From: Gamsiella multidivaricata
Lineage: Eukaryota > Mortierellomycota > Mortierellomycetes > Mortierellales > Mortierellaceae
NCBI RefSeq assembly: GCF_025024155.1
Contig: NW_026251709.1
Span: 1,039,860-1,103,859, forward strand
Length of the DNA: 64,000 nt
Direction: 5' to 3'
Of the stretch, positions 4,367 through 28,563 are shown one piece after another (position 1 is the stretch's first letter; every line of letters starts with the position of its first letter). The translations under genes and the position numbers were made by a program. Below the pieces are notes generated by a model. The model made no database searches, was not told the DNA's origin, and worked only from the letters and a program-made list of their open reading frames with translations.

Positions 4367-7345
4367 TCAAAAAAATCGTCTTACCTGCACGGGGCCATCC
4401 TGTCCAGTATGTCCAGCCTGTCCGTCCTGTCTGTCGTTGGCGTTTTGTTGGGTATCGGGAGGATCGTTGGTTGTGCTCTTCCGCCTAAAAAATGCTGCTA
4501 TTAGAACCAAGGCGCTATATGCCAATACAGCAAAACTAATATTGAACATTTCCTTACATTTTCTGACCACTATTGGGTCGTTGAACGAGAGCTTTCTTGG
4601 ACTTGTCGAGGTCTTGGTAACCCCATGATCTCTTGAGAACATTGAATGAGCCCTTTGCAATATCCTCGATGTCTTTCTACAACAGAGAAATAAAAAAATG
4701 TCAATGAGAATAACTTAAAAAAAACTCAAACATAGCTAAAATACATACCTTTGCGATCAATAGAGTGGAGAAGGTTGCGATCAGTGAGGCGACCGCGGCA
4801 GTCGTGGTTGGGATGGTGAACTTGCCCACTTCATGAAGGACATACATCCCTCGGGTTTCAGCCCGTAATCGCATGTAGTTTCCATTCTCGTAGATGATAT
4901 GGAAAAGAGGTGCCATTTTAAATCCAGAGTCCAAAAAGGCCTTGCCATAGCGAACATCACGGAAGAAATCCCAAAGGTTCTTCCACTCGTCGTTCTTGTG
5001 AGCTGGACCAGAGAACTCGCCCCAGGCAATTTCTGTTTTGCCAACAGCGGCCGTAAAGTCGGGTCGGTCGGGCTTCAGTCCTAGTTCCTTTTGCGTTGCT
5101 GAGTCTTTGTTCGGGCTATTGGTCAACAATAAAAACATTTCTTAGAAAGGCAATTCCACCATACGTCAACAAAAGATTTTGCAGCGCATTCTTACAAGTG
5201 GCTAGTGACAGTTTTGGATTCAAAAAATGCCTGCATGACTGGCCCAATATGCTTAACGGTATACTCGTACTCAGAAATCGAACGGTCTTCATCCTTCGGG
5301 AGATATTCCAACCTGAGAAAAAAGGATACAAAAACAAAATTAGCTTGATTTTACAGCACCAATAGCATCATGTGCTTTGTAACATCGAATCCTACAGCGT
5401 TTCAAGCATGATACGGATGGGCCTGTGGTCCTTGTTCATAGGGACAAGAGTCGCCGCCACATCGTCCTTTCGGTCTTGCAAGCAAAGCTAGAAAAAGAGG
5501 GAAAAACATTAGTGAGCATCAACAAAATGAGCGTGAAGCAAACAATATTGAACGTACCTTAACAGCTTTCATTGCCAAACTATCGTTAAACTCAACAGAA
5601 TCCCACTCCGCATTTGTGATCTCGCGCGATTTGATGAAAGCTTGAAGAATTTCATCTGAAAAAACGGATTTCATCCTTTCGGTTGGTCTCGAGGGCACGA
5701 ATATCCCCATCAAAGATACCACGTCTGCAATTTCCATGATCTTCAGCTGGCTTTTCACAAGGGCATCCACACTGAGCCGCTGGTACTTCTTGAAGAGGCA
5801 AGTTGAGCATGCCTTGCCTTCCTGCGGTGCACAAGTATGCGTGATCTTCTCGATTTGTGACAGGAGAATCGCTCGTTCATCTGCGTTGATGATTGTTGAT
5901 TGATCATCTGATGGCGGTGCGGCTAGGACCGTTCCGGGGGATCCTGGAAGTATGTCTGACGCGCCAGTCATGATCTGGCTTGAATGAGTAGTGGGGAGTC
6001 CATCTGTGGTTGATAATGATCCAGGAACTGAGCTCGAGTCAGTAACGCGTCCAAGACCTCTGACTGAGATTTTCGATTCTGATGCCAGTCCCGGAACAGC
6101 GGCCGAAGTGTTCAAGCCAGCTGCTGATCCAGTAATGGTTGTCGAGGCTATCAAATCGGTTGCGGCAGTGGTTGAGGAGGTTGAGTCGATAGCAGCTCCA
6201 AAATAAAGGGGAGGGGTTCCCAGACGCGACGATGAAGCAGCAAACGATGGTGGCATTCCTGGGGGAGCGGTTGAAGCATTTGGGAATGGCGGCAATTCGG
6301 TACTTGCGCATGAGGGTCCTGCTCTTCCTGCACTCATGCCCACCGCTGAATCACCTGCGGTTGACGTTGTGGAGTTCGCGGCTGTTGAGCCTGATGACGT
6401 TGAAGTTAAGGGCGAAGCTGACGAGTTACGGGGAGCTTTAGGCGGTGCCTCCTCCAGTTCGACCCAGGGATCGCGTGGATGCTTCTGGCCAGCTAGTAGA
6501 GTGGTAACAAAAGGTGCCCAAGAAGTCAATGTATAAGGAATGCAAGAGTCTCCGGACCAATCGTTATATGGCAAGTTTGCTTACCTGCGCTGGGGATGCA
6601 TGTCGAATGTGCAGAGTCTTGGCCGAGCACATGAGAGTCCAAAAATGAAGCCGGATCTGTGATGCGCGTCGAGGATTCAGTGCCTTCATCAAGGTTATGA
6701 GAGGGTAAAGAGAAGGCTGGATTGGGGATATGCGTGGTTGGATTGGCGGTCTGCGTGGTTGGACCAAGGACATGCGTGGAAGACGATGAGGCGTGGGCTG
6801 GCACCGCTATCAAGGTAATGCAGCATTGGTTAAGCATTGCAAATTATAGTCCTACGCGAGCAAATCATATGTATCCATACAGTTGTTGACATCGATTGAA
6901 TATTGGGCATTGGCCCTTCCAATTTGTCTATTGCAATTGTCCACAGGACTGTACCTGAACTCGAAGAAGATGCAGGGATGTCGCCTGCATCCCGCGCAAC
7001 ATGGAGATACAATCCTCGCACGCTTACTTTGGCACGCGTTGACTCAGTTTTCAATAAAAGATTTTCGAACGTCTCCATGAACTTGTCATATCGAACAGAT
7101 TCACACAAGAATCTTGCGCGCTTCTGAAGTGGTTCCGAGATGTCTTTGTGATGAGCGATTATCTTCAGGTTTTCCATGAACACCTCATGGTGTTGGTGAG
7201 GAGTTTTGGTCACGTGTCTGTAAGCGAAAAAAATCTCGACCTCACCCCAGTGTCTAGCATCGTTCTCGCGGAAGAAGGCATGAATGGTGGTGATACGCGG
7301 GTCAACAGATCCGAGGCAGCCCTGGAGAAGCCGTGTTGTGCGCAT
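4367..7345 (-). CDS. Intact eight-exon orphan protein (786 aa), possible PD-(D/E)XK-like domain
   Basis: Eight exons join with matching phase: 7345-6955, 6806-6585, 6492-5558, 5487-5396, 5312-5196, 5115-4749, 4676-4558 and 4484-4367. All introns are GT-AG and the total is 787 codons including the stop. The start ATG (MRTTRLLQG) follows a likely intron or leader. The N-terminal 120 residues are alpha-helical and charged. A long Ser/Thr/Ala-rich low-complexity stretch follows, then a conserved-looking C-terminal half with paired CxxC (ACSTCLFKKY) and a block with RPDF...TEIAWGEFSGP followed by a hydrophobic segment (TIPTTTAAVASLIA). The RPD...E pattern resembles expanded Mortierella proteins with a restriction-endonuclease-like fold, but a Lys at the active position is not evident. 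The last exon could splice on at CAG/GTAAGACG. Function unknown. It is one of few undamaged genes here. Confidence 0.7.
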
Positions 7346-7398
7346 CTTGAAAGGATGCGTAATGTCGTGAAGAATGTAAGCAAATGTCAGATAGTACA

Positions 7399-8345
7399 AA
7401 AAAAAAAAAAGAAAAAGAATGTGATGGGCGAGTGTAGATGCTCCATGACCACATTTGCCATGTATGTACCTCTCGGCAGATACCATGCGCAACTGATCAC
7501 TATTGCGACTGCAGCTCGAGGTGACAGAACCAAGAGTTCGCGGTTGAGCAAGCTGCACTATCCCCATCGAAAGGAACAGTCTGGCGACCCTCTGCATCGA
7601 AACGATTGCGTGTCCTCATGATGAGAAGGCGCAACAGGAATCTCAGCAGAGTTCACCCAGACGCGCTGGATGAATGGCAGCCTAGACGGGAGGAGCAAAA
7701 AAAAAAGAAAAAGAATGTGATGGGCGAGTGTAGATGCTCCATGACCACATTTGCCATGTATGTACCTCTCGGCAGATACCATGCGCAACTGATCACTATT
7801 GCGACTGCAGCTCGAGGTGACAGAACCAAGAGTTCGCGGTTGAGCAAGCTGCACTATCCCCATCGAAAGGAACAGTCTGGCGACCCTCTGCATCGAAACG
7901 ATTGCGTGTCCTCATGATGAGAAGGCGCAACAGGAATCTCAGCAGAGTTCACCCAGACGCGCTGGATGAATGGCAGCCTAGACGGGAGGAGCAAAAAAAA
8001 AAGAAAAAGAATGTGATGGGCGAGTGTAGATGCTCCATGACCACATTTGCCATGTATGTACCTCTCGGCAGATACCATGCGCAACTGATCACTATTGCGA
8101 CTGCAGCTCGAGGTGACAGAACCAAGAGTTCGCGGTTGAGCAAGCTGCACTATCCCCATCGAAAGGAACAGTCTGGCGACCCTCTGCATCGAAACGATTG
8201 CGTGTCCTCATGATGAGAAGGCGCAACAGGAATCTCAGCAGAGTTCACCCAGACGCGCTGGATGAATGGCAACCTAGACGGGAGGAACAAAATAAAAAGC
8301 GTTTATGCTCTCTTACCTTATTTGCCATGAATGTTCCAATCGGTA
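7399..8345. repeat. 296-bp tandem triplication plus a diverged fourth part-copy
   Basis: Three nearly identical 296-bp units start with an A-rich run, gaaaaagaatgtgatgggcg (about 7399, 7693 and 7989). They end in gatgaatggcagcctagacg. After about 8284 a fourth, clearly diverged partial copy continues (ttatttgccatgaatgttcc against catttgccatgtatgtacc). The unit is not a multiple of three, so each copy shifts frame, and its 103- and 111-residue open frames are copies of one another. The array lies between the orphan gene's 5' end and the 3' end of the Fanzor gene. It may be a subterminal repeat of the mobile element to its right, or upstream control sequence of the orphan gene. Confidence 0.9.
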
Positions 8346-8483
8346 GATGCTTGCGATGAAGGAAGAGGTGAGGTGGGACGGAGTTTATGCAGCAGCGTTA
8401 AAGCATAACTTGGACTTTTACATGCCAAATATGGTGAATGTCAATCCAGACTGACGCTCTTAAGTGGTTGAATCCAGTGCACT

Positions 8484-11400
8484 TCAGGCGTAAACTAGGT
8501 CATCGAAGTGAAATAGGTGTGATACTTTTGCTTCTTTTGCTTTTTTCCCGGGCTTTCTTGGCTTGTTCGATACAGATGGTGTCCTCTTGCGACCACGGGG
8601 GAGAGCACCGGTGCTTGTACTGGCGCTGGTCATCGGTGCACTGCTGTTGGTGTTGCTGGTGCCAACTGTGGAAGAGTTCATGTTTGGGTCCTCCTGCCAA
8701 GGGTACCGTCCATCGGCCGTCCTGGGCTGTAGATAAAGAGGTCGTTCCTGCTTCTCCAGGTGTCCTCTGACAATCCTGGATATGTTCTCAGCCGCCATCA
8801 CATCTCTGTGGTGATAATGCTCGCAGTGTGGACAGTACAGCTCGCGGAGGGTCACCTGTGCCACAAAGTTTTGGCAATTAGGACACTTTTTTGAGGTATA
8901 GTACTCGTTCAGTCCCACAACAATATACCCCAATGATCGGGCCTAGATTTTTTTTAATAGATTGTGTCAACCCTTCTCTACATATGTCAAACATTTGAAC
9001 ACTTTGCAATCATGATAAATAGCATACATACCAATGGGATAAAGTAGTCCAGGAAGGTTGAATGGAGGGACGAAATGCGCCCTGTGCTCTTGAACTGACC
9101 AAGACCAACGCCAATCAAGACTGGATTGGCTGGGTCCCAGGGATGGCCAATGCTTCCGCCTACGATACCCAACAGACTCGCCGCAACAGCCTGGTATTCT
9201 GCTTGATTCGCCCTGTCCCGATCTCAACCATGCTTTTTGAATCTGTTGTTGGATCCAGCATAGAACTCCAAGAGTCGTTCTCCTGCTGGACATTTTGGCT
9301 CCTCCTCCTCGTCGTCATCCTCTGGGTCTTTCTTCTTTGGTTCAAGTGCCTCCCAGTACTTGGTGATGCTCGCGCCTGGACCCCGAAGTGGTGGGAGACG
9401 AGACTCCATTTCTGAAATCGACTCTGGTTGATTGTCCTCCTTTGAGTTTTTTTCTTTCTCAAGCCATCTCCTGTAACGAAAAACAGGTTGCATGACTGCC
9501 TTTTGATTCACCGCGAGGTTGTAGTGACCGTCGGGATCCTCAGGTAGATAGGCATACGCACCAACCACGAACGCTTGACCAGCATCGAGTGTCAGGATCT
9601 TGATATCGCTTGGGTTGACTCCTGGCCAGAACTGTTCGATGTCCTCCTCGGTCCGGATAACGTTACGAACCTCTTGGAGGTAGAATCTGTGCCTCCGGCT
9701 GTCGACACGATCCTGAGCGGCAGACGATCGTCTGGTAACCTCCTGTATCGTACAGATTGCAGCTCCTTCAACTTGAAGGTCGACAGGTACAATCCCAATC
9801 CATCTGTCATTGGGGATCCCCTGGAGATATACCCGTTCTCGACGTAGTCTCTTGGCTGGAACTCAGGTTCCTCAAGCTGTTGCAAGTGCTTCTCGAGTTT
9901 CTTGAGGGACCGTAATTTGATTTTGGCTCGGCGACCTGCTCTCCGTTTCTGGCAACCCTTCAGGCCTTTAGGATCAATATCGGCGACAAAGTTCTTGATC
10001 AAGAACCCGGGCTCTTTCTCGCCCATCCAGCTGTGGACCTCGTCGACAGAAGCATGGAATCCGTCCTCGGTTGCCAGATTTATAAGCCTCTGCATAAGCG
10101 CTCCACCTCTCTTGAAGAAGAACCCAGCCAGCTCTCTCTCAGAGAATCCGACATACGGTTGCCTGGACGACGTCATAGGGATAGTCCTTCTGGGGTTCGG
10201 AGACAACTTGTTCAGAGTCAGGTAGTTCTCGATGGCCGAGAGATCCTCCCGAATCTGGATTTTCGCGTTGGGCTTGTCCAGCTGCCTTTGATTGGCCCTC
10301 TTCATCAACTAAAAATTGAAGATTAATAAAAAAAATTAAACACGTTCTAGAGCCAATGAACACCTGTATTGATGACATGCCACTTCAAGTCTTACCATCT
10401 TGTGGAGATCGCAGGTTCCAGTCTTGTACATTCGTTTAAGCCCAGCCTTCAGCTGTCCGACTACGGATCGGACTAGGTCCGTGGGTGTGAACGGCATTCT
10501 TTCGTTGATCTCAGCCCGAGTCCGCGGCGGATTGTACAGATGAAGTTCTTCAAGACGCTTGATGAACTTGACGACCTCCTGTTTTGTTGGGATGTTGCCA
10601 GAGCACAGATAAACAAGAAAGCTTGAAAGGAAATGCCGCTGCGCTTGGTCACTCCCGCCTGATCCTCCCATATCGGTGTCATCCTCCTCAACATTGCCCT
10701 CATCCTCCTCGTCCTCGTCCTCGTCCACAATGCCAGCAATCTGATTCCCATCCTCGTCTTCCTCCACGGCATCATCGGCGTTGTTCTCGACATCCTTCAT
10801 GGTGACTCGCGGACATATCAGATCGAGAAAGGTCCGATCCTGAGCATCCAGTCCCTCAAGTCCTTTTTCGACCAGGCGTTCTAAGTATTCCCAATCAACA
10901 TCTGGGCCTTGCGCTTGATGCGAGCCGTCTCACTTGCAGCATCCAAGAGGACAGACTTCACCTCGTGTTGGAGACTGTTTTGGCTGGGAAGAGCTTGCTC
11001 GATATTGGCGGATAGAGTGCCGATGTGCAGAGAGGTCGCCGGGTGCTGGTAGGCCAACATCCTAGTGATTTTCAACTTGTAGGTTTCCGCTGTTAAAGTT
11101 GATAACGATTTTGGCGCAGGCTTTTGCTTTTGCTTTGGCTTCGGTTTCTCAGTCTTGGGTTCAGGCTCCTTGAAAGGCTTCCAGACGTATTGTTTCATCT
11201 TTGCTGGCGGTGATCGCCGTTTCGTTTTGGCCCGATCTTGTCGTTTAAACGAGTATCGAGGGCGGTTTTTCTTGGGAACTCAGGTTCGTGGCAAAGCAGA
11301 GTGACCGACTTCTTCCTGAGGTGAAGACGGACCTTGGGTCGTGGTTAAAGCAAGCCGCTGTGTTTGTTGGGTGACCGCGGCGAACTGCTGTGATTGCTGC

Positions 11401-11525
11401 CCAGTAGCTGGCTGGGAAAGGGAAGAAACCTGAGAGTCCGTCTGACGATCCCTAATGAACACCGGCGACTCCACAGTCTTGAAATGGCTCGGTGTCTGGG
11501 GTGATCTCAGGCGCACGATTTGCAC
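8484..11525 (-). pseudogene. Fanzor1 (eukaryotic TnpB/OrfB) RNA-guided nuclease, decayed
   Basis: Fanzors are TnpB homologues; characterised members are RNA-guided DNA nucleases. Visible parts in order are a Lys/Pro-rich N-terminal tail (11198-11100) and a helical N-domain (SVLLDAASETARIKRKAQ). An Asp/Glu-rich insert (10800-10680) is followed by a core with FSERELAGFFFKRG. RuvC-I is KILTLDAGQAFVVGA near 9590. The RuvC-II region is VLIGVGLGQFKS. The C-terminal exon 8942-8484 has ARSLGYIVVGLNEYYTSKKCPNC, the zinc ribbon CPNC...CPHC, and RuvC-III HHRDVMAAENI. GT-AG introns are at about 9031-8943 and near 10385-10312. Lesions: a stop near 11280, a one-base frame change near 10886, another near 9690 and a TGA at 9224-9226. 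Catalytic Asp residues survive. The C-terminal tail is basic and nuclear-signal-like. A guide RNA would be sought at the 3' end (8290-8484). Confidence 0.85.
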
Positions 11526-11547
11526 GTTGGTTGAGCTAGTTAATTTG

Positions 11548-11578
<31 letters not shown>

Positions 11579-11642
11579 GTCAAACAAGTCTCTACAGACA
11601 ACATGGAACAGAGCAACCACAACAAAAATAAAAATATTACCT

Positions 11643-12740
11643 CCTTTGAGGCGGACGACTTTTCTTGGGCTGCTCGTAACGGGAACAAAGGTCTTTGAAC
11701 CTGTCCCAGAGATCGTTGAAAGACGGGCCTACTGGAGTGGAGGTTTGGGAGACAAGAGTCTACTTCTTATCGACAAAGACCCGCAAGGATACATGAAAAT
11801 CCTCGTTTGTTGTGTTCTTGGTCGAGACCTTGACGTGGTTCAGATAGGCGGCCACAATGGCTTCTGTGTCTGAAGAAGAAACAAAAAAAAAAAAAGAAAA
11901 AAAGGTTATTTTTCCTGTTACATTGTCCCAAAACCATAATCGCTCGTCTTATTTTTTTTTTTTTTGACCTTACTGGGTGCATCGAGGCTCTTGATAATGG
12001 AAAAGTTTGTTGCTGGTCCCAGGGAATATATATTGCGGTTGTAGTCGTTCGACGACACCACTGCAAGGGCCGTGGGTTGAGTTCGAGTCAATCCAAGTAC
12101 TGGCAAACATCGTTGAGCTTGTACTTCAGGACCAAGTATTTAGAGATAGGACGCCAAAGAGTCAAGGCAGAATCATAGCCCAACATGTCGCTTTCAGCAG
12201 AAATTGCGACATTCTCTGGCCCACAGTCAAACGCGATCGCGACATCCGCCTCTGTCTCACAGATGCGTACTGACCAGCCGGCCTGCTGAAGGTACCCGAT
12301 GAATGTTTGACGATCCTCCAAAGACCAGTAGAAGTGGCCGAGAGACTTATCCTAACGTCAACGAAGTGGCATTTTCGCGGCTTGCTGCCGTCCTTCATGA
12401 TGCTTTCGAGCTTGTCGAGGCTTTCAGTACATTTGGAGGCAGCCTTGCTCCGAGATTCCTTGCGCTGCTTCGCCCTCTCCTGCTTCTCTAGTGCTGGCCC
12501 GCCGTCGATGTACAGGACCAGGTTCGTTTTAGAGCCAAACCCCAAGACATGCTGTTCAAGCCTTGCATGGGCCTTCTCTGCGGTACAATGGGCATAGGCG
12601 TTTTTGATGACGCCGTAAAAGGACAACACGTCGACGAGACCTCTCCGACTGCCCAGGGCAGACACCATCGCCGACTTGTGTATCACCCGAGGAGAATGGC
12701 CTTCTCTTCGTAGAAAAGCGAATCCGTCTTTTAGGCCCAT
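11643..12740 (-). pseudogene. XPG/FEN1-like nuclease domain, copy 1, in line with the Fanzor
   Basis: The start MGLKDGFAFLRR resembles the XPG N-terminal signature. LYIDGGPALEKQERAKQR matches the DG-x-P-x-x-K...R part of XPG-N. ICETEADVAIAF matches the XPG-I acidic motif, SAESDMLGY gives the next Asp pair, and SSNDYNRNIYSLG resembles the helix-hairpin region. Two one-base frame changes (near 12352 and near 12087) break it. After an intron (about 11960-11881) an exon beginning TEAIVAAYLNH carries an in-frame TAG near 11763. It ends QPKKSRPPQRR, where a good donor (GAG/GTAATA) could splice in phase into the Fanzor linker exon at 11535. A paralogue at 16091-16963 aligns throughout. XPG-type proteins cut DNA flaps and bubbles; this one's target is unknown. 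Confidence 0.75.
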
Positions 12741-12859
12741 TGTCGTTTACATGAGAAATAGAGAGAAGTGATGTAGAAAGTGAGCCGAGAGAATAATAAA
12801 TTCGAAAGTTTGTGTGAGATAATGTATGCGTGGGGAAGTGAATGAGAGGGTGTGGAGCA

Positions 12860-12900
12860 GAGATATCAGCGGATTGATTTTTTTGGTGAGACGCTGTCAA
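12860..12900. repeat. Terminal-inverted-repeat-like motif, right end of the XPG-Fanzor element
   Basis: The sequence agatatcagcggattgat, a T run, then ggtgagacgctgtcaa sits 120 bases upstream of the XPG-like start at 12740. The same motif in opposite orientation follows at 12934-12975, and a diverged copy lies upstream of the third XPG fragment (28699-28745). The repeated position beside XPG starts suggests an element terminus. No matching left end is visible near 8.4 kb. Confidence 0.65.
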
Positions 12901-12933
12901 TTATGACTATTTTGTTAAGCAAAACTCCTATAG

Positions 12934-12975
12934 TTGACAGCGTCTCACCAAAAAAATCAAGCCGCTGATATCTCT
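12934..12975. repeat. Opposed copy of the same TIR-like motif, left of the MULE
   Basis: It reads ttgacagcgtctcaccaaaa...caagccgctgatatctct, the reverse complement of 12860-12900 with two changes. A 33-base spacer separates them. Beyond the motif the two flanks are unrelated, so this is either two elements placed end to end or one foldback junction. It stands about 620 bases before the MULE transposase start. Confidence 0.7.
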
Positions 12976-13108
12976 GGTGTGGAGAAAGGGGTGCATGTGA
13001 AGATGCGTGTGAACCATTCTGTTCTTGACCCCAAGCCACCAGGAGTTTGAAGTGGCTACTTCTTGTTGACTTTACTTTTGCGCCTCTATTCTATTGACCC
13101 AAACCTCG

Positions 13109-13496
13109 AAGCTGTGGTATCCAGCCGCCTCTTCCGTTGAATGTGCAGTCACACTCCAGAGGGGCTGGGCGAGAATCTCTTCCTCACCCTTGAAGCACAC
13201 TTCGTCCTCAACATTTCCTAAAAAGGATGGAGGCCTCCACAACCTCAGATGTCCGCTCTCTGACATGGTGCAGTCTTGGTCCACGGCGTAGCAGGGTGGG
13301 TACGAGATAAGAGACGGGTACGGAGAGAGTGAATGAAAGAGAATATCCGCGAAGTGATATTGCGCATCTGAGGTTGTGGAGGCCTCCATCCTTTTTAGGA
13401 CGAAGTGTGCTTCAAGGGTGAGGAAGAGATTCTCGCCCAGCCCCTCTGGAGTGTGACTGCACATTCAACGGAAGAGGCGGCTGGGTATCACAGCTT
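13109..13496. repeat. Long near-perfect inverted repeat (arms about 135-145 bp) holding a coding-like fragment
   Basis: Arm 13109-13252 is repeated in reverse at 13364-13496, with an 11-base difference (ctcaacatttc present only on the left) and a spacer of about 110 bases. The minus strand of the left arm reads as a 65-residue frame (13267-13072, starting MSESGHLRLW and ending NRIEAQK) that looks like the C-terminus of a real protein. The right arm carries the same peptide (CFKGEEEILAQPLW) on the plus strand. A gene fragment has been copied in inverted orientation next to the MULE. Confidence 0.85.
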
Positions 13497-13601
13497 CCCA
13501 AACCTCTCCCTGTCTTCCTCTCTCCCATCGGTTGCCCCTGCATTGCCATTCCTCTCTTGTTCTCATCTTCACTATCTACACCTGTTGTCACCACATTCAA
13601 G

Positions 13602-16050
13602 GATGAGTGGACTCAAATTAAAAGACATTTTTATTGATCCAAGTGATTTCAAATCTCGAGATCTCGTTGTGCCCAACGCATTCCCGCGTGAACAGGATGT
13701 GTGGATGGTTAGATTCACCCCGGAAGACTTCAGGGCGTTCTGGTTTCAAGAGTAAGCCGCCATTCAATTTGTTCCCTGCTCTGAACGAGGACCTAATCGC
13801 GACATCCGAAAACAGCCCGGCGACACTCTCCTCCCTCTCCATATCACCGTTCCTGGTACCAATGGTAGACCAAAGACCTACGACTGGAGCTTCCGCTTTC
13901 AATGCAGAAGGCACGGTCCTCCCAGACCCTTGGCGCTCAACCGACCATCTGTTGGCACTGGATGTCCTGTTGAGATTCGGATGAAAAAATTTGTCGGCAT
14001 GGATGCGGTGCTTGTGGATTACCGGTGGCAGCACAACCATGACCTTTCGGCCCAGACCTTGTCAAATATGCCCATGGGTGCGAATGAACGCAACTGGATC
14101 AAGCTGAAGGTGGCGGAAGGTAGCGACTGGAAGGGGATACGAACTATGCTGTGAATGGGTAAAAACTCGATGTCAGAGGTACAGTTTTTATGCTGTCATG
14201 TGTTATTGAGTTGAGCCGTTGTCATACAACTTCTCATTTCTATCTCTTGGCTCTTTTATCCTTTAACAACACATAGATCAAAGCGAAGAAATCTGGCGGT
14301 ATTGTCCCTCCAGCATTTTGCCTGTCCTATGAAGATGTGAGACAAACGGTATATCGTGAACGGATAAAGAACTCTCGAAAATCATTAAATACAACGACAA
14401 GCGTGCAAACCTGGATCGAAGCTATCAACGAATACGGAGAGAACTTGGCGCTCTAAGAAAACATGTAAAGACCCGCATCTCCGGCAATTCCAACTGAAGG
14501 TACCCTTTTTTAGAAGCAAGAAGTTCTAGGGTTTCGTATCGGTCTCGATCTCTTACTCGTTCTATATTTTTCCTTCAATGATTTTTAAGGTCATGAGCGA
14601 CAGCACTAAAATCGTGTGTATGGACTCAACACACAAAACCGTCAAATAATCATTGAAGCCAGATCCAAAAAACGATAAGAGATTCGTCTCCGCGTATCTG
14701 TTCACTCTTTTGGTGAAAGATGTGAAGACGCAATTGGGTGTGCCAATTGCGTTCATGGTATGCAATTCTGAATCAACGTAAGTACTACCGTTTTGTACAA
14801 AATGTATCTTTCTTTCGCCTTTCCAAAGCACAAAATATAAAAACAACTGGGTTTCTATCATGCTCTGCTGGCTCACATTCCTCATATTTTATTTCTGAAC
14901 TGCAATAGGGATGTTCTCAGGACCTGGCTGACTTGGGTCAAAGACGAGTGTGGCCTAAACCCATCAAAGTTTATGATCGACTGCTCTGTCGTCGAGACTG
15001 AAGCTCTCAAGCAAACGTTTCGCTCGTTAGATATTTATTACTGCAAGTTTCATGTTGGTCAAGCTTGGGAGCGGAAAATGCGGGACCTTCACAGTGTAAA
15101 TGCATATGGCAAAGAAAAGAATTCTCCTGTCCGCCGAAGTCACTCTGTTATTCCATTCGTCTTCTAATATTTTCAGCTCTTTGATATGCCCCAGGTTGCA
15201 GAAAGCGATGCCATGCGGAAATCACTGAACGGGATCCTAAACGCTCTGTCGGACGAGGACCGAGGACTGAAGTGGAAGGCGTTCACAACCAATTTTTCAC
15301 CATCTGCAGACGCTTTTATTACCTATCTCGAGAAATGGATGGAACCAACAAGACTTGCGAAATGGGCTCTATATCTTCGATCGGTGAGCATGAACAGGTC
15401 GTTTGTACGTTGCCAAGGTTTGTTGACGATCCAACTCTGTTAATTTTTGTATTTTTCATATTTTTCATATTTTTCATATTTTTCATATTTTTCATTTTTT
15501 TTTTTGGCGTCGTTAGGATTGCCAACACAATGATACCAACAATTTAGTTGAGAACTGGCACAAGACGCTGAGTCACAGTACCTGAGAAGTGAGAGGAATC
15601 TGCGTCCAGATGATCTTGTGCACTTGTTGCAAGGGGTGGTGAACATCGACTTCAGGACCCTCTACTTCAAAAGACTCAACAACATGATACCGCATAAACT
15701 GTCCTCATACAATTTAAAGGAGAAAGCGAAGGCAGACGCTGTCAACTTCAACACTGCTCAGACTATGGTCATACCAAACACAGACGAACAAAAGGTATAG
15801 TATCGGTATCGATACCCCGGTTGTCAGGGCTCTGGACAATGGCATTAACGGTATCTTATTAACATTCCTATTTTACCTAGTTCAAGGTCCAGTCCTTCGC
15901 TGTTGTAAACAATCCTATAGCTGTCAATAGGGTAATCAGTAACACGTATGACGTCCGCACAGATGAAGAATTCACCGTCCTTACTGCCTGTCGCTGCAAC
16001 TATTATGCTCAACATCAGGCGCCGTGCAAACATATGTATCTAACCGCAAA
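13602..16050 (+). pseudogene. MULE-type transposase with zinc-binding N-domain and SWIM finger, decayed
   Basis: MULE transposases excise and insert Mutator-like DNA elements. The reading starts MSGLKLKDIF. It continues in a shifted frame through an FAR1/WRKY-like zinc fold (FRFQCRRHG...GCPVEIRMKK...DYRWQHNHDL, 13840-14150) and a helical segment at 14280-14460. The DDE core follows: MDSTHKT near 14620 (first Asp), FMIDCSVVETEAL near 14970 (second Asp) and NNLVENWHKTL near 15540 (Glu). The SWIM finger CRCNYYAQHQAPCKHM is near 15990. Introns with GT-AG ends are seen at about 14779-14910 and 15385-15516. Damage: a stop after GENLAL near 14455, a TAA after HKTVK near 14640 and a frame change near 15570. 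It is directly followed by XPG copy 2. Confidence 0.85.
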
Positions 16051-16090
16051 GGTTTTCACATTGACATTCTCAGCTCGTTCTTTTCAGTCA

Positions 16091-16963
16091 TTCGCCGCTG
16101 TTTCCTTCACCCTGACACAACAGTCGCATGTATCAACTTCGAACGACATTTGATCACCTGTCAGTTTCCCAAGGCAACGACGATTCTGCACATGGACGGA
16201 CCTTCTCCTGCTGAGAAGAACGCGACCAACGAAGAACGTCAATCAAAACGCACAAAAGCCCTTTCCAAGGCCAACAAGCTCTTGACCAACATGGAAGAGA
16301 CCCTCGAGAACAACAGAAAACTACGGAAACAGCAGTTCAAGACTGTCAACAAAGCCATTGTCGACCCCTATTTCAATCATGATCTCCGCCAAGCACTTGC
16401 CCAGCATCTTGTCACAAATGGCTGGAATGTCTGCAGATGCCGTTCGGAAGCAGATACCCGCATTGAGTCCATTTGCCAGCAACAGGATATTGTCATCACT
16501 CGTGACAGTGACTCGCTTATCTACAGCAACATCACCACAATCTGGAGACCCTTTGGCCGAAACCGGTACCTCGTCTATAATGTCCCGGAACTGTTACGCC
16601 ACCTTCAGCTCTCAAGAGCAGGATTGACTACCCTTGGAGTCGTTACCCAGAACGACTACGGCAAGGGGATCCACAAGCTCGGTGTCAAGGCAAATTTTAT
16701 GATTATTTTGGCTCTGGAAAAGGACGGTAAGCCGAAATAGACTATGTATTCTCCCTTGTTTTCATTGCCTTATTCATCTCCATCTCACCATTTTTATTTT
16801 TCTTTTGTTCAGTTCCGTCGACGGCTGCGAGTGTTCAGGAGCTTGTTCAGGCCTACTTGGTACACACTACTATATCTAGCAAGCACCCGACAGAGAGACT
16901 ATTTGACTCGGCTATTTGGATCTTTACCGTACAGCAGTGTACGACTCTTACTCTATCCTAAGT
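16091..16963 (+). pseudogene. XPG/FEN1-like nuclease, copy 2, lacking its N-terminus
   Basis: The frame from VIRRCFLHPD aligns with copy 1 from its residue 43 on. It has LHMDGPSPAEKNATNEER (XPG-N DG-P-K motif), CRCRSEADTRIESIC and ITRDSDSLIYS (XPG-I acidic residues), and TQNDYGKGIHKLG (helix-hairpin-like). An intron (about 16733-16812) leads to an exon VPSTAASVQELVQAYL that ends in a natural-looking stop at 16961-16963. No frame lesion is seen inside this part. The first 40 or so residues, which in copies 1 and 3 carry the MG(I/L)K signature, are absent. In their place stands the SWIM end of the MULE, joined through a possible acceptor (ttttcag at about 16090). Either the MULE truncated the gene or the two are now one transcription unit. 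No Fanzor follows it. Confidence 0.7.
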
Positions 16964-17312
16964 GGTGAGAAAGCTTGATATTGAGATTTTCCTTCCGATC
17001 ATGGAGATAATGATATATGTCCAGTAACTCGACTTGCTTCTTCAGGGTGTGAGGGGCCCTGACCATTGGGATCTCGAACTGGTTGACTTCAGGAAATGCA
17101 ATGTATGTGTCCATATCTTTGCGCCTGGCACAATCCAAAAGCAAGCTGTATTTCAGTCGACGAGCGTGTTCGGTATCTTCAAGTTTGCGCTTGGTGTATT
17201 TATGATTCTTGACAGGAGGATGTACAAGAGTTGGTTTTTGTTTTTTGCTTGACGTCGTTGCTTGGATCGAGAGCGACCCATATTGTCGTTTTTGGTAAGT
17301 TTTTGTAGCCAT
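16953..17312 (-). CDS. Hypothetical 119-residue basic protein
   Basis: An open frame starting MATKTYQKRQYG is rich in Lys, Arg, His and Tyr, with KRKLEDTEHARRLKYS as a possible helix or nuclear signal. It has no introns in my reading and no recognised domain. Its 3' end overlaps the last codons of XPG copy 2 on the other strand. It could be real, or an antisense shadow in a poorly conserved stretch. Confidence 0.35.
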   Translation of the reverse strand: MATKTYQKRQYGSLSIQATTSSKKQKPTLVHPPVKNHKYTKRKLEDTEHARRLKYSLLLDCARRKDMDTYIAFPEVNQFEIPMVRAPHTLKKQVELLDIYHYLHDRKENLNIKLSHHLG

Positions 17313-17522
17313 GGTGTTGAGATGTATAGAATGCAACATGAAAGACGTGTCCATGGGGAACAAGAAGTACGCAACATGTGACTGAATATGTGACTGTATT
17401 TTTTTCTCTTTAGAAAGTCCACCAATTCAATCTGAAATTAAGTTTCGACTGTACTTTTTTTTTTGTTCTTTCTTCCATTATCTCATCTCTTCGCACACGT
17501 CTCATCACTTAGAAGACTGGAA

Positions 17523-27843: not shown

Positions 27844-28316
27844 AATGAAAAATATTGTAGGAAAGTGTTTGTGTTGGGCAGGTGAATGAGGAAGAAAGAA
27901 TGAGGAATCAACCTCGTTCATCCCTCACCTTGAACATTCATCCATCACTCATTCCCATCCGCATCATCTCATTGGTCCATGGGACATCAGATGATCTCAC
28001 ACATTTGATCAGATGATCTTGACTGTATGATGTCACGAAAAAAAAAAAAAATCCATACACAATCAACCTAATTTACGCGATTCAAAATCTCTGCAGTACA
28101 ACTCACTCTGCCTCATATGCCATACAAAATCCTGGAACTCGTGCCTCGTTCTCCAAGGGGAGGGGGAGCTGTCGCATATTTCACCAGAGTTCACTATATA
28201 TTTAGTTTAACAAGTGTACCTCCAGCTCACTATTACATATAATACAAATAAATACCTAGTCGGTGTGGTGTGTGGAGCCACATCTCTTTATCACTCATTT
28301 TCAATCCCAAAATATC
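27844..28316. other. Intergenic, no gene seen
   Basis: It holds the 5' side of the coiled-coil gene, an A run at 28038-28050 and repeats of the type gatcatct. Nothing codes in any frame. Confidence 0.4.
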
Positions 28317-28563
28317 TCAAATGTAAATAACCGAGTTGGCGGGGGTGGAGAGCATCCTTAGCCGTCTTTCAACAATGGGATGTGCAAGATCGATGGTGTA
28401 GGATGAGTACACAGACTGAATAGTTGGGAAAAGTGTGCCGAGAATGTCCACGCGAATACGTGGGCCATTGTGAAAAGGATCAGCGAGGCTGTGGCAACCA
28501 TAGCGCAGAGTGGCCTGGTACCCTTTCTTGTCTAGAAAGGACCACAAGCCCTTAATGCCCATG
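28317..28563 (-). pseudogene. XPG/FEN1-like nuclease, copy 3, N-terminal fragment
   Basis: The frame starts MGIKGLWSFLDKKG, a better match to the XPG N-terminal signature than copy 1. It continues IRVDILGTLFPTIQ and ends SVIYI just before the position of the DG-P-K motif in the other copies, followed by a stop. The remaining two thirds of the gene are absent. A TIR-like motif stands 136 bases upstream, the same arrangement as copy 1 (120 bases). It is therefore a truncated member of the same mobile family. Confidence 0.75.

Follow-up and report, generated by a model that had tools for sequence, protein, structure and literature searches.

Positions 8484 to 12740 of the 64,000-nucleotide stretch of Gamsiella multidivaricata DNA analysed here (the window, C1:1039860-1103859 in a genome of 37.5 Mb and 180 contigs) raise the question of whether an XPG/FEN1-like nuclease and a Fanzor RNA-guided nuclease, which follow each other on the minus strand, belong to one protein or to two neighbouring genes. 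We are highly confident, from the comparison of relatives, that one transposon-encoded protein joins XPG and Fanzor. In the predicted protein, of about 1,000-1,500 amino acids (aa), an N-terminal FEN1/EXO1-type 5' nuclease of the XPG superfamily would be connected to a Fanzor1-type nuclease by a disordered linker rich in Gln, Pro, and Lys. The whole explanation, a MULE-like transposon family of the Mortierellomycotina that encodes an XPG-linker-Fanzor1 protein, with the role proposed for it below, is probable. Sequence and models support the join and its age, both folds, both active sites, and selection acting on the linker as well as on the two halves.

Fourteen loci found by a nucleotide-level search of this genome were compared with the window (15 sources in all). 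In 12 of them, piece-by-piece tblastn detected XPG, linker, and Fanzor one after the other on a single strand, which gives 13 ordered copies (the window and 11 of the loci, L012 carrying two); it found no XPG match in L013, L020, and L022, and L021 is without the Fanzor end. We distinguish family A (window, L009, L010), family A' (L011 and the minus strand of L012), and family B (the plus strand of L012, L014-L019, and L021), which shares 35-60% aa identity with family A over the four pieces compared. Family B provides the key result. Its homologous junction intron is 96 nucleotides (nt) long and stop-free in all eight copies, so the frame continues whether the intron is spliced or not, and the two domains are separated by no stop at the join. 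The frame is open and in register into the N-terminal part of Fanzor in L014, L018, and L021, and L018 contains a 483-aa stop-to-stop frame leading from the C-terminal part of XPG through the linker into Fanzor. The donor of the family-B copy in L012 is AT instead of GT. Two further families at a greater distance, D (L028) and E (L029, L030), also have XPG ahead of Fanzor on one strand, with DPG as the RuvC-I motif; in L029 the open frames of XPG and Fanzor share the same frame with one stop between them, and the XPG frame of L028 terminates at AGG-TAA, as in the window.

Three protein searches, with 8000 candidates scored in each, returned 19, 15, and 7 matches, which are 35 distinct proteins. 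Twenty of them are annotated single proteins spanning more than 60% of both domains (985 to 1,502 aa, with 15 of the 20 at 1,100-1,360 aa). The preliminary description of this DNA had proposed a single two-nuclease protein and a search for intact relatives joining both domains; these 20 proteins in other species and the open frames in the same genome, which in family B lack a stop where QRR lies, bear the proposal out, and no intact relative in which XPG terminates at QRR and Fanzor has its own promoter and start was seen among the copies compared. Organism names are given for 34 of the 35 proteins, every one from Mortierellomycotina genera (Gryganskiella, Podila, Entomortierella, Haplosporangium, Linnemannia, Dissophora, Benniella, and Mortierella), the 35th being JGI record P0028. 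No named match lies outside the Mortierellomycotina, a result of 8000 scored candidates per search that does not show absence elsewhere. Annotations among the matches include hypothetical protein, putative transposase, and Cas12f1-like TNB domain-containing protein. The set consists of predicted gene models, some of them partial, and agrees with the open family-B DNA. A viral origin was considered and dropped: among the best 50 of 150 viral-structure matches, flap endonucleases and transposase/TNB proteins appeared only as separate entries, and scanning viral contigs with P0010 turned up no confirmed relative.

The exon boundaries of the window copy were placed by eye, guided by the relatives; all its exons lie on the minus strand. 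Exon 1 (11974..12740, tblastn and direct reading) begins with ATG at 12740 and encodes the XPG/FEN1-type nuclease domain (N region, I region, and helix-hairpin part), with a weak Pfam match to Pox_G5 under the cut-off. Exon 2 (11641..11869, tblastn) encodes the C-terminal part of XPG, TEAIVAAYL...QPKKSRPPQR, and has one internal stop. The junction intron, identified by comparison with relatives, is 105 nt long and in phase 2 (11536..11640, GTAATA...ACTAG), with the donor GGAG/GTAATA at 11641/11640 and the acceptor ACTAG ending at 11536. Exon 3 (10396..11535, tblastn and direct reading) encodes the Gln/Pro/Lys-rich linker and the N-terminal half of Fanzor, and is interrupted by a single TGA (11282-11280) and, near 10881-10929, by a break in the frame. 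Exon 4 (9032..10308, tblastn), also with frame breaks, encodes the middle of Fanzor and RuvC-I (LTLDAGQA), and exon 5 (8484..8942) encodes the alternative Glu (NEYYTSKKC), the zinc finger/TNB domain, and the RuvC-III Asp, and ends with the TGA at 8484. Splicing joins the frame in phase 2, and it then runs to the Fanzor N-terminus through the one TGA; unspliced, it stops at QRR-TAA. Direct reading and tblastn thus reproduce the earlier observations on the order of the XPG-like, TEAIVAAYL, linker, and Fanzor parts, on the in-phase join of the QPKKSRPPQR donor to the acceptor at about 11535, on the linker that is open except for one stop, and on the TAA that follows QRR if the intron is retained.

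Families A and A' are about 69% identical in DNA and have the junction intron AG/GTAATA...TAG in common. The intron lengths in the five copies (105, 97, 92, 102, and 103 nt) cover all three remainders modulo three, and despite these differences the same linker frame is entered after splicing in every copy. The frame is open up to the Fanzor start in both A' copies, and the window and L009 have one linker stop each. The linkers of A and A' differ by gaps of 18, 33, 3, and 12 nt, all multiples of three.

The arrangement was also followed through the whole genome, where one family-B XPG query gave at least 124 matches and the TNB profile at least 109 Fanzor-type matches, five of these under the curated cut-off. 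A same-strand XPG match lies at most 6 kb upstream of 55 of the 109 TNB matches, at a spacing of 2.9-3.7 kb in 43 of the 55 linked pairs, and three TNB matches show another arrangement. Uniform placement would give 1.08 linked pairs. The XPG-Fanzor order is beyond chance, because it is repeated in 12 of the 15 sources and because 55 linked pairs stand against about one expected.

The Fanzor part was recognized by PF07282 (TNB/zinc finger) above the cut-off in five of the seven proteins scanned, with E 1.1e-13 for window 8484-8942. The alternative Glu, six residues ahead of the zinc finger, is present in 14 of the 17 proteins reaching this column; its position is part of the Fanzor definition in the sections of PMC10711439 consulted. 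The RuvC-I Asp is present in 23 of 23 proteins, and Foldseek matched the two-domain model to SpuFz, GtFz, and PpFz (E 2.6e-7 to 1.5e-5). The model also predicts an XPG/FEN1 fold with a helix-hairpin region, which by structural alignment has about 15% identity to known XPG proteins. The catalytic acidic positions of XPG (the active-site carboxylates) and two basic arch residues (Lys/Arg) are nearly invariant over 26-30 sequences; in the alignment to Rad2, the second Glu of the EAEA motif is Asp in the fusion. The XPG nuclease is fairly likely to be active, and its fold and active-site conservation suggest that it may act on DNA flaps. A PIP-box was searched for in 20 proteins and the idea was dropped, the four matches in four proteins having no consistent place and three of them lying within the Fanzor part.

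Ratios of nonsynonymous to synonymous substitution (dN/dS) were calculated by the Nei-Gojobori method and are rough, dS being near 1. Between L009 (family A) and family A' they are 0.20 for XPG_I (L011) and 0.11 for the XPG C-exon, 0.31 (L012) and 0.24 (L011) for the linker, and 0.20, 0.41, 0.18, and 0.09 for Fanzor pieces; in two of these ten comparisons (XPG_I with L012 and one RuvC piece) saturated synonymous sites gave no ratio. For A against B, two of four comparisons were saturated; the other two gave 0.27 (linker) and 0.14 (one Fanzor piece). Rough as these ratios are, the linker behaves as a sequence under protein-level constraint. The distances among XPG domains follow those among Fanzor domains in the 20 proteins (r 0.904; none of 5000 shuffles) and also in the 15 proteins left without the DPG clade (r 0.754; none of 5000 shuffles). 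The two domain trees share 9 of 17 splits, among them the deep DPG split. A single old fusion, with both domains descending together, fits these data best, and the fusion is, judging from the sequences compared, old and present in several families.

The role of such a protein can be suggested tentatively. The current idea about TnpB in prokaryotes is that it cuts element-free DNA and so promotes the copying back of its element. The Fanzor part, guided by RNA from the right end of the element, would cut element-free DNA, and the tethered XPG domain would remove 5' flaps or the displaced strand, or resect the 5' ends left by the RuvC cut. This 5' processing would yield 3' tails and favour homologous repair templated by the copy that bears the element, and the element would be copied back into the broken site by homologous recombination. 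Such a programmable RNA-guided cut with tethered 5' processing, forcing homology-directed copying of the transposon, is possible, at rather less than even odds.

Several observations weigh against the fusion or parts of its explanation. The window copy is decayed: exon 1 of XPG carries frameshifts, the XPG C-exon, the linker, and Fanzor are interrupted by stops or breaks in the frame, and its XPG reads ISAESDML where relatives have SADSDML. L010 of family A has a 1-nt linker deletion that shifts the frame, and of the eight family-B copies, three (L015, L017, and L019) are interrupted by a single stop within the checked stretch and two (L012 and L016) by a frameshift. No nearby XPG match was found for 51 of the 109 TNB matches; in a sample of three, the one on C12 sits at the end of a contig and still has its linker, and those on C109 and C106 are without the Fanzor N-terminal part, so that the 51 are a mix of truncated copies, contig ends, and possibly XPG-free Fanzors. 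The Fanzor RuvC-I motif is described as near exclusively DPG in the sections of PMC10711439 consulted, and DPG was found in only five of the 23 proteins, the residue after Asp being Ala in eight, Leu in five, Gly in four, and Ser in one; the window has DAG and does not by itself show DPG. The Fanzor superpositions are poor (target TM 0.22-0.30, rmsd, root-mean-square deviation, 16-26), no Fanzor is in the VIA structure list, whose rows went to the XPG domain, and the model is of moderate confidence (mean pLDDT 67.4, pTM 0.40) and does not give the relative domain placement. Pfam XPG_I passes the cut-off in one of seven proteins (P0019, 28.5 versus 24.9 bits), the other six being below it or unlisted. 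Three pairs of splits with support above 0.9 conflict between the domain trees (P0005, P0006, P0008). The right-end guide RNA is only a candidate. The family-B right end appears more conserved than the upstream coding part, and folding z-scores are -1.73, -2.16, and -0.59 for three family-B ends of 100 nt, -3.84 for L009, and +2.16 for the window; a six-sequence fold gave a weak hairpin with none of 26 pairs compensatory, and Rfam had no match at the gathering score in window 7000-17500.

The carrier of the fusion appears to be a MULE-like element. The element on C122 (217495-225234, 7.7 kb) is flanked on both sides by GCTTGGATG as a 9-bp target duplication, and its ends are imperfectly inverted and share GGCGTAAAC (read by eye). 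It is the only convincing case among five elements tested; L014 has no duplication, L018 only poly-A, and L016 (8 bp with one mismatch) and L017 (7 bp) have candidates off position. The right end in the window (8470..8483, minus strand) is where homology stops in the window, L009, and L010, 14 nt past the position of the window Fanzor stop, and where the C122 duplication starts. Upstream of XPG, family A carries a divergent gene with motifs found by eye, which we take to be FAR1-like, DDE-like, and SWIM-like. Its MULE-like remains in the window (13497..16053, plus strand), with only a weak Pfam signal, keep the FAR1-like and SWIM-like motifs, and the left end of the element beyond 16053 is missing. 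PF10551 (MULE) had no match in seven window pieces, and none of its 11 genome matches lies within the fetched copies; one below the cut-off (C93:674932-675057, minus strand) lies some 1.5 kb away from an XPG match on the plus strand that has a TNB match downstream.

The position of XPG beside this transposase gene in family A, and the target duplication made by the C122 element, are what would be expected if XPG served the transposase by trimming flaps or hairpins where MULEs excise or insert, with the fusion only delivering XPG. We consider this unlikely: family B retains XPG-Fanzor although its loci show no more of the transposase gene than a SWIM-like remnant, and XPG distances track Fanzor distances in the comparison of these two domains. 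The left 0.6-0.7 kb of family A (C122:217494-218150) matches five family-B loci at 88-93% identity and a sixth at 97% over 245 nt (the set being L014-L018 and L021), suggesting exchange or a shared transposase between the families; with left ends so similar despite the far-diverged proteins, the family A transposase may mobilise family B.

It is improbable that the XPG fold is a catalytically dead arm that helps Fanzor to find or hold branched DNA; the strong divergence of the domain from known XPG proteins would agree with it, and the nearly invariant catalytic acids and arch residues argue against a dead fold. A dual output of family A, with splicing giving the fusion and intron retention a stand-alone XPG ending at QRR, would explain the in-frame TAA that opens the intron in all five A/A' copies and the same AGG-TAA at the XPG end of family D; we find it distinctly improbable, since retention in family B merely adds 32 residues and the switch is thus not general, and GTAA is a common donor anyway. 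Two adjacent, separately translated and merely linked genes, one for XPG up to QRR-TAA and one for Fanzor from its own ATG (for instance MKQY), can be set aside almost entirely, because, although the unspliced A/A' frame ends at (Q/E)RR-TAA in five of five copies and in all three families (A, A', and B) the Fanzor core is preceded by an in-frame ATG (MKQ/MKL), the family-B frame is open at the join, the linker is conserved as protein with inter-family gaps in multiples of three, and gene models in several genera cover both domains.

The fused protein resembles the known Fanzor1 nucleases (SpuFz1, GtFz1, PpFz1) in the RuvC Asp, the alternative Glu, the TNB zinc finger, the DNA-transposon carrier, and the Foldseek fold match, and differs from them in carrying a whole second nuclease at its N-terminus; most Fz1 proteins have 600-700 aa according to the consulted part of Xu 2024 (PMC11423790). 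PpFz1, from the Mucorales, is likewise a fungal Fanzor1 bearing an added domain, the FRI domain of about 100 aa, which binds cyclophilin and, unlike the N-terminal nuclease of the fusion, is inserted within RuvC (PMC11423790, same part). FEN1, EXO1, and XPG, the 5' nucleases of the Rad2 superfamily, differ in that here the nuclease is transposon-borne and fused to an RNA-guided one. The closest carriers are the MuDr-type Fanzor1 elements of Rhizopus, Phycomyces, and Mucor, which have 9-bp target duplications and are said to be without MuDR transposase in the portion consulted of Bao and Jurka 2013 (PMC3627910); the MULE-like carrier and 9-bp duplication are alike, whereas the family A fusion has a divergent transposase-like gene alongside. 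The word XPG is missing from the main text of PMC3627910, and the consulted parts of PMC3627910, PMC10432273, PMC10711439, and PMC11423790 do not mention an XPG fusion. A literature search judged by title found no natural XPG-Fanzor/TnpB fusion and did not cover every Fanzor survey, so that an earlier description is possible. We file the XPG-fused Fanzor as a variant form of Fanzor1, not previously described in the literature found.

The fusion indicates that a eukaryotic RNA-guided nuclease was joined long ago to a repair-type nuclease and has been kept under selection in at least one fungal phylum, and it makes the benefit of Fanzor to its transposon directly testable. Fusions of RNA-guided cutters to exonucleases have been engineered, and the protein described here may be their natural counterpart.

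Other features accompany the element in the window. A MITE-like insertion of 389 bp (13108..13496), which has inverted arms and is flanked on each side by AGGTTTGGG, is absent from L009 and L010, which are about 95% identical around the site; the arms and the flanking repeat were read by eye. An imperfect palindrome of 119 bp lies directly upstream of the XPG start (12858-12976) and is also present in L009 and L010, and a tandem repeat with a 296-bp unit (about 7540-8330) is found near-downstream of the right end. Where the left MULE-like part is cut off, a second XPG-like frame begins (15967-16960, plus strand), with about 30% aa identity to the first, an XPG_I match under the cut-off (E 0.012), and no linked TNB match. 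A frame of 157 aa (16953-17426, minus strand), without a Pfam match at E 0.5, has a relative of 65% aa identity just past the truncated Fanzor of L021 (7827-8222). A further weak XPG-like match with one stop (E 2.3e-6) lies at about 28311-28562 on the minus strand (C1:1068170-1068421).

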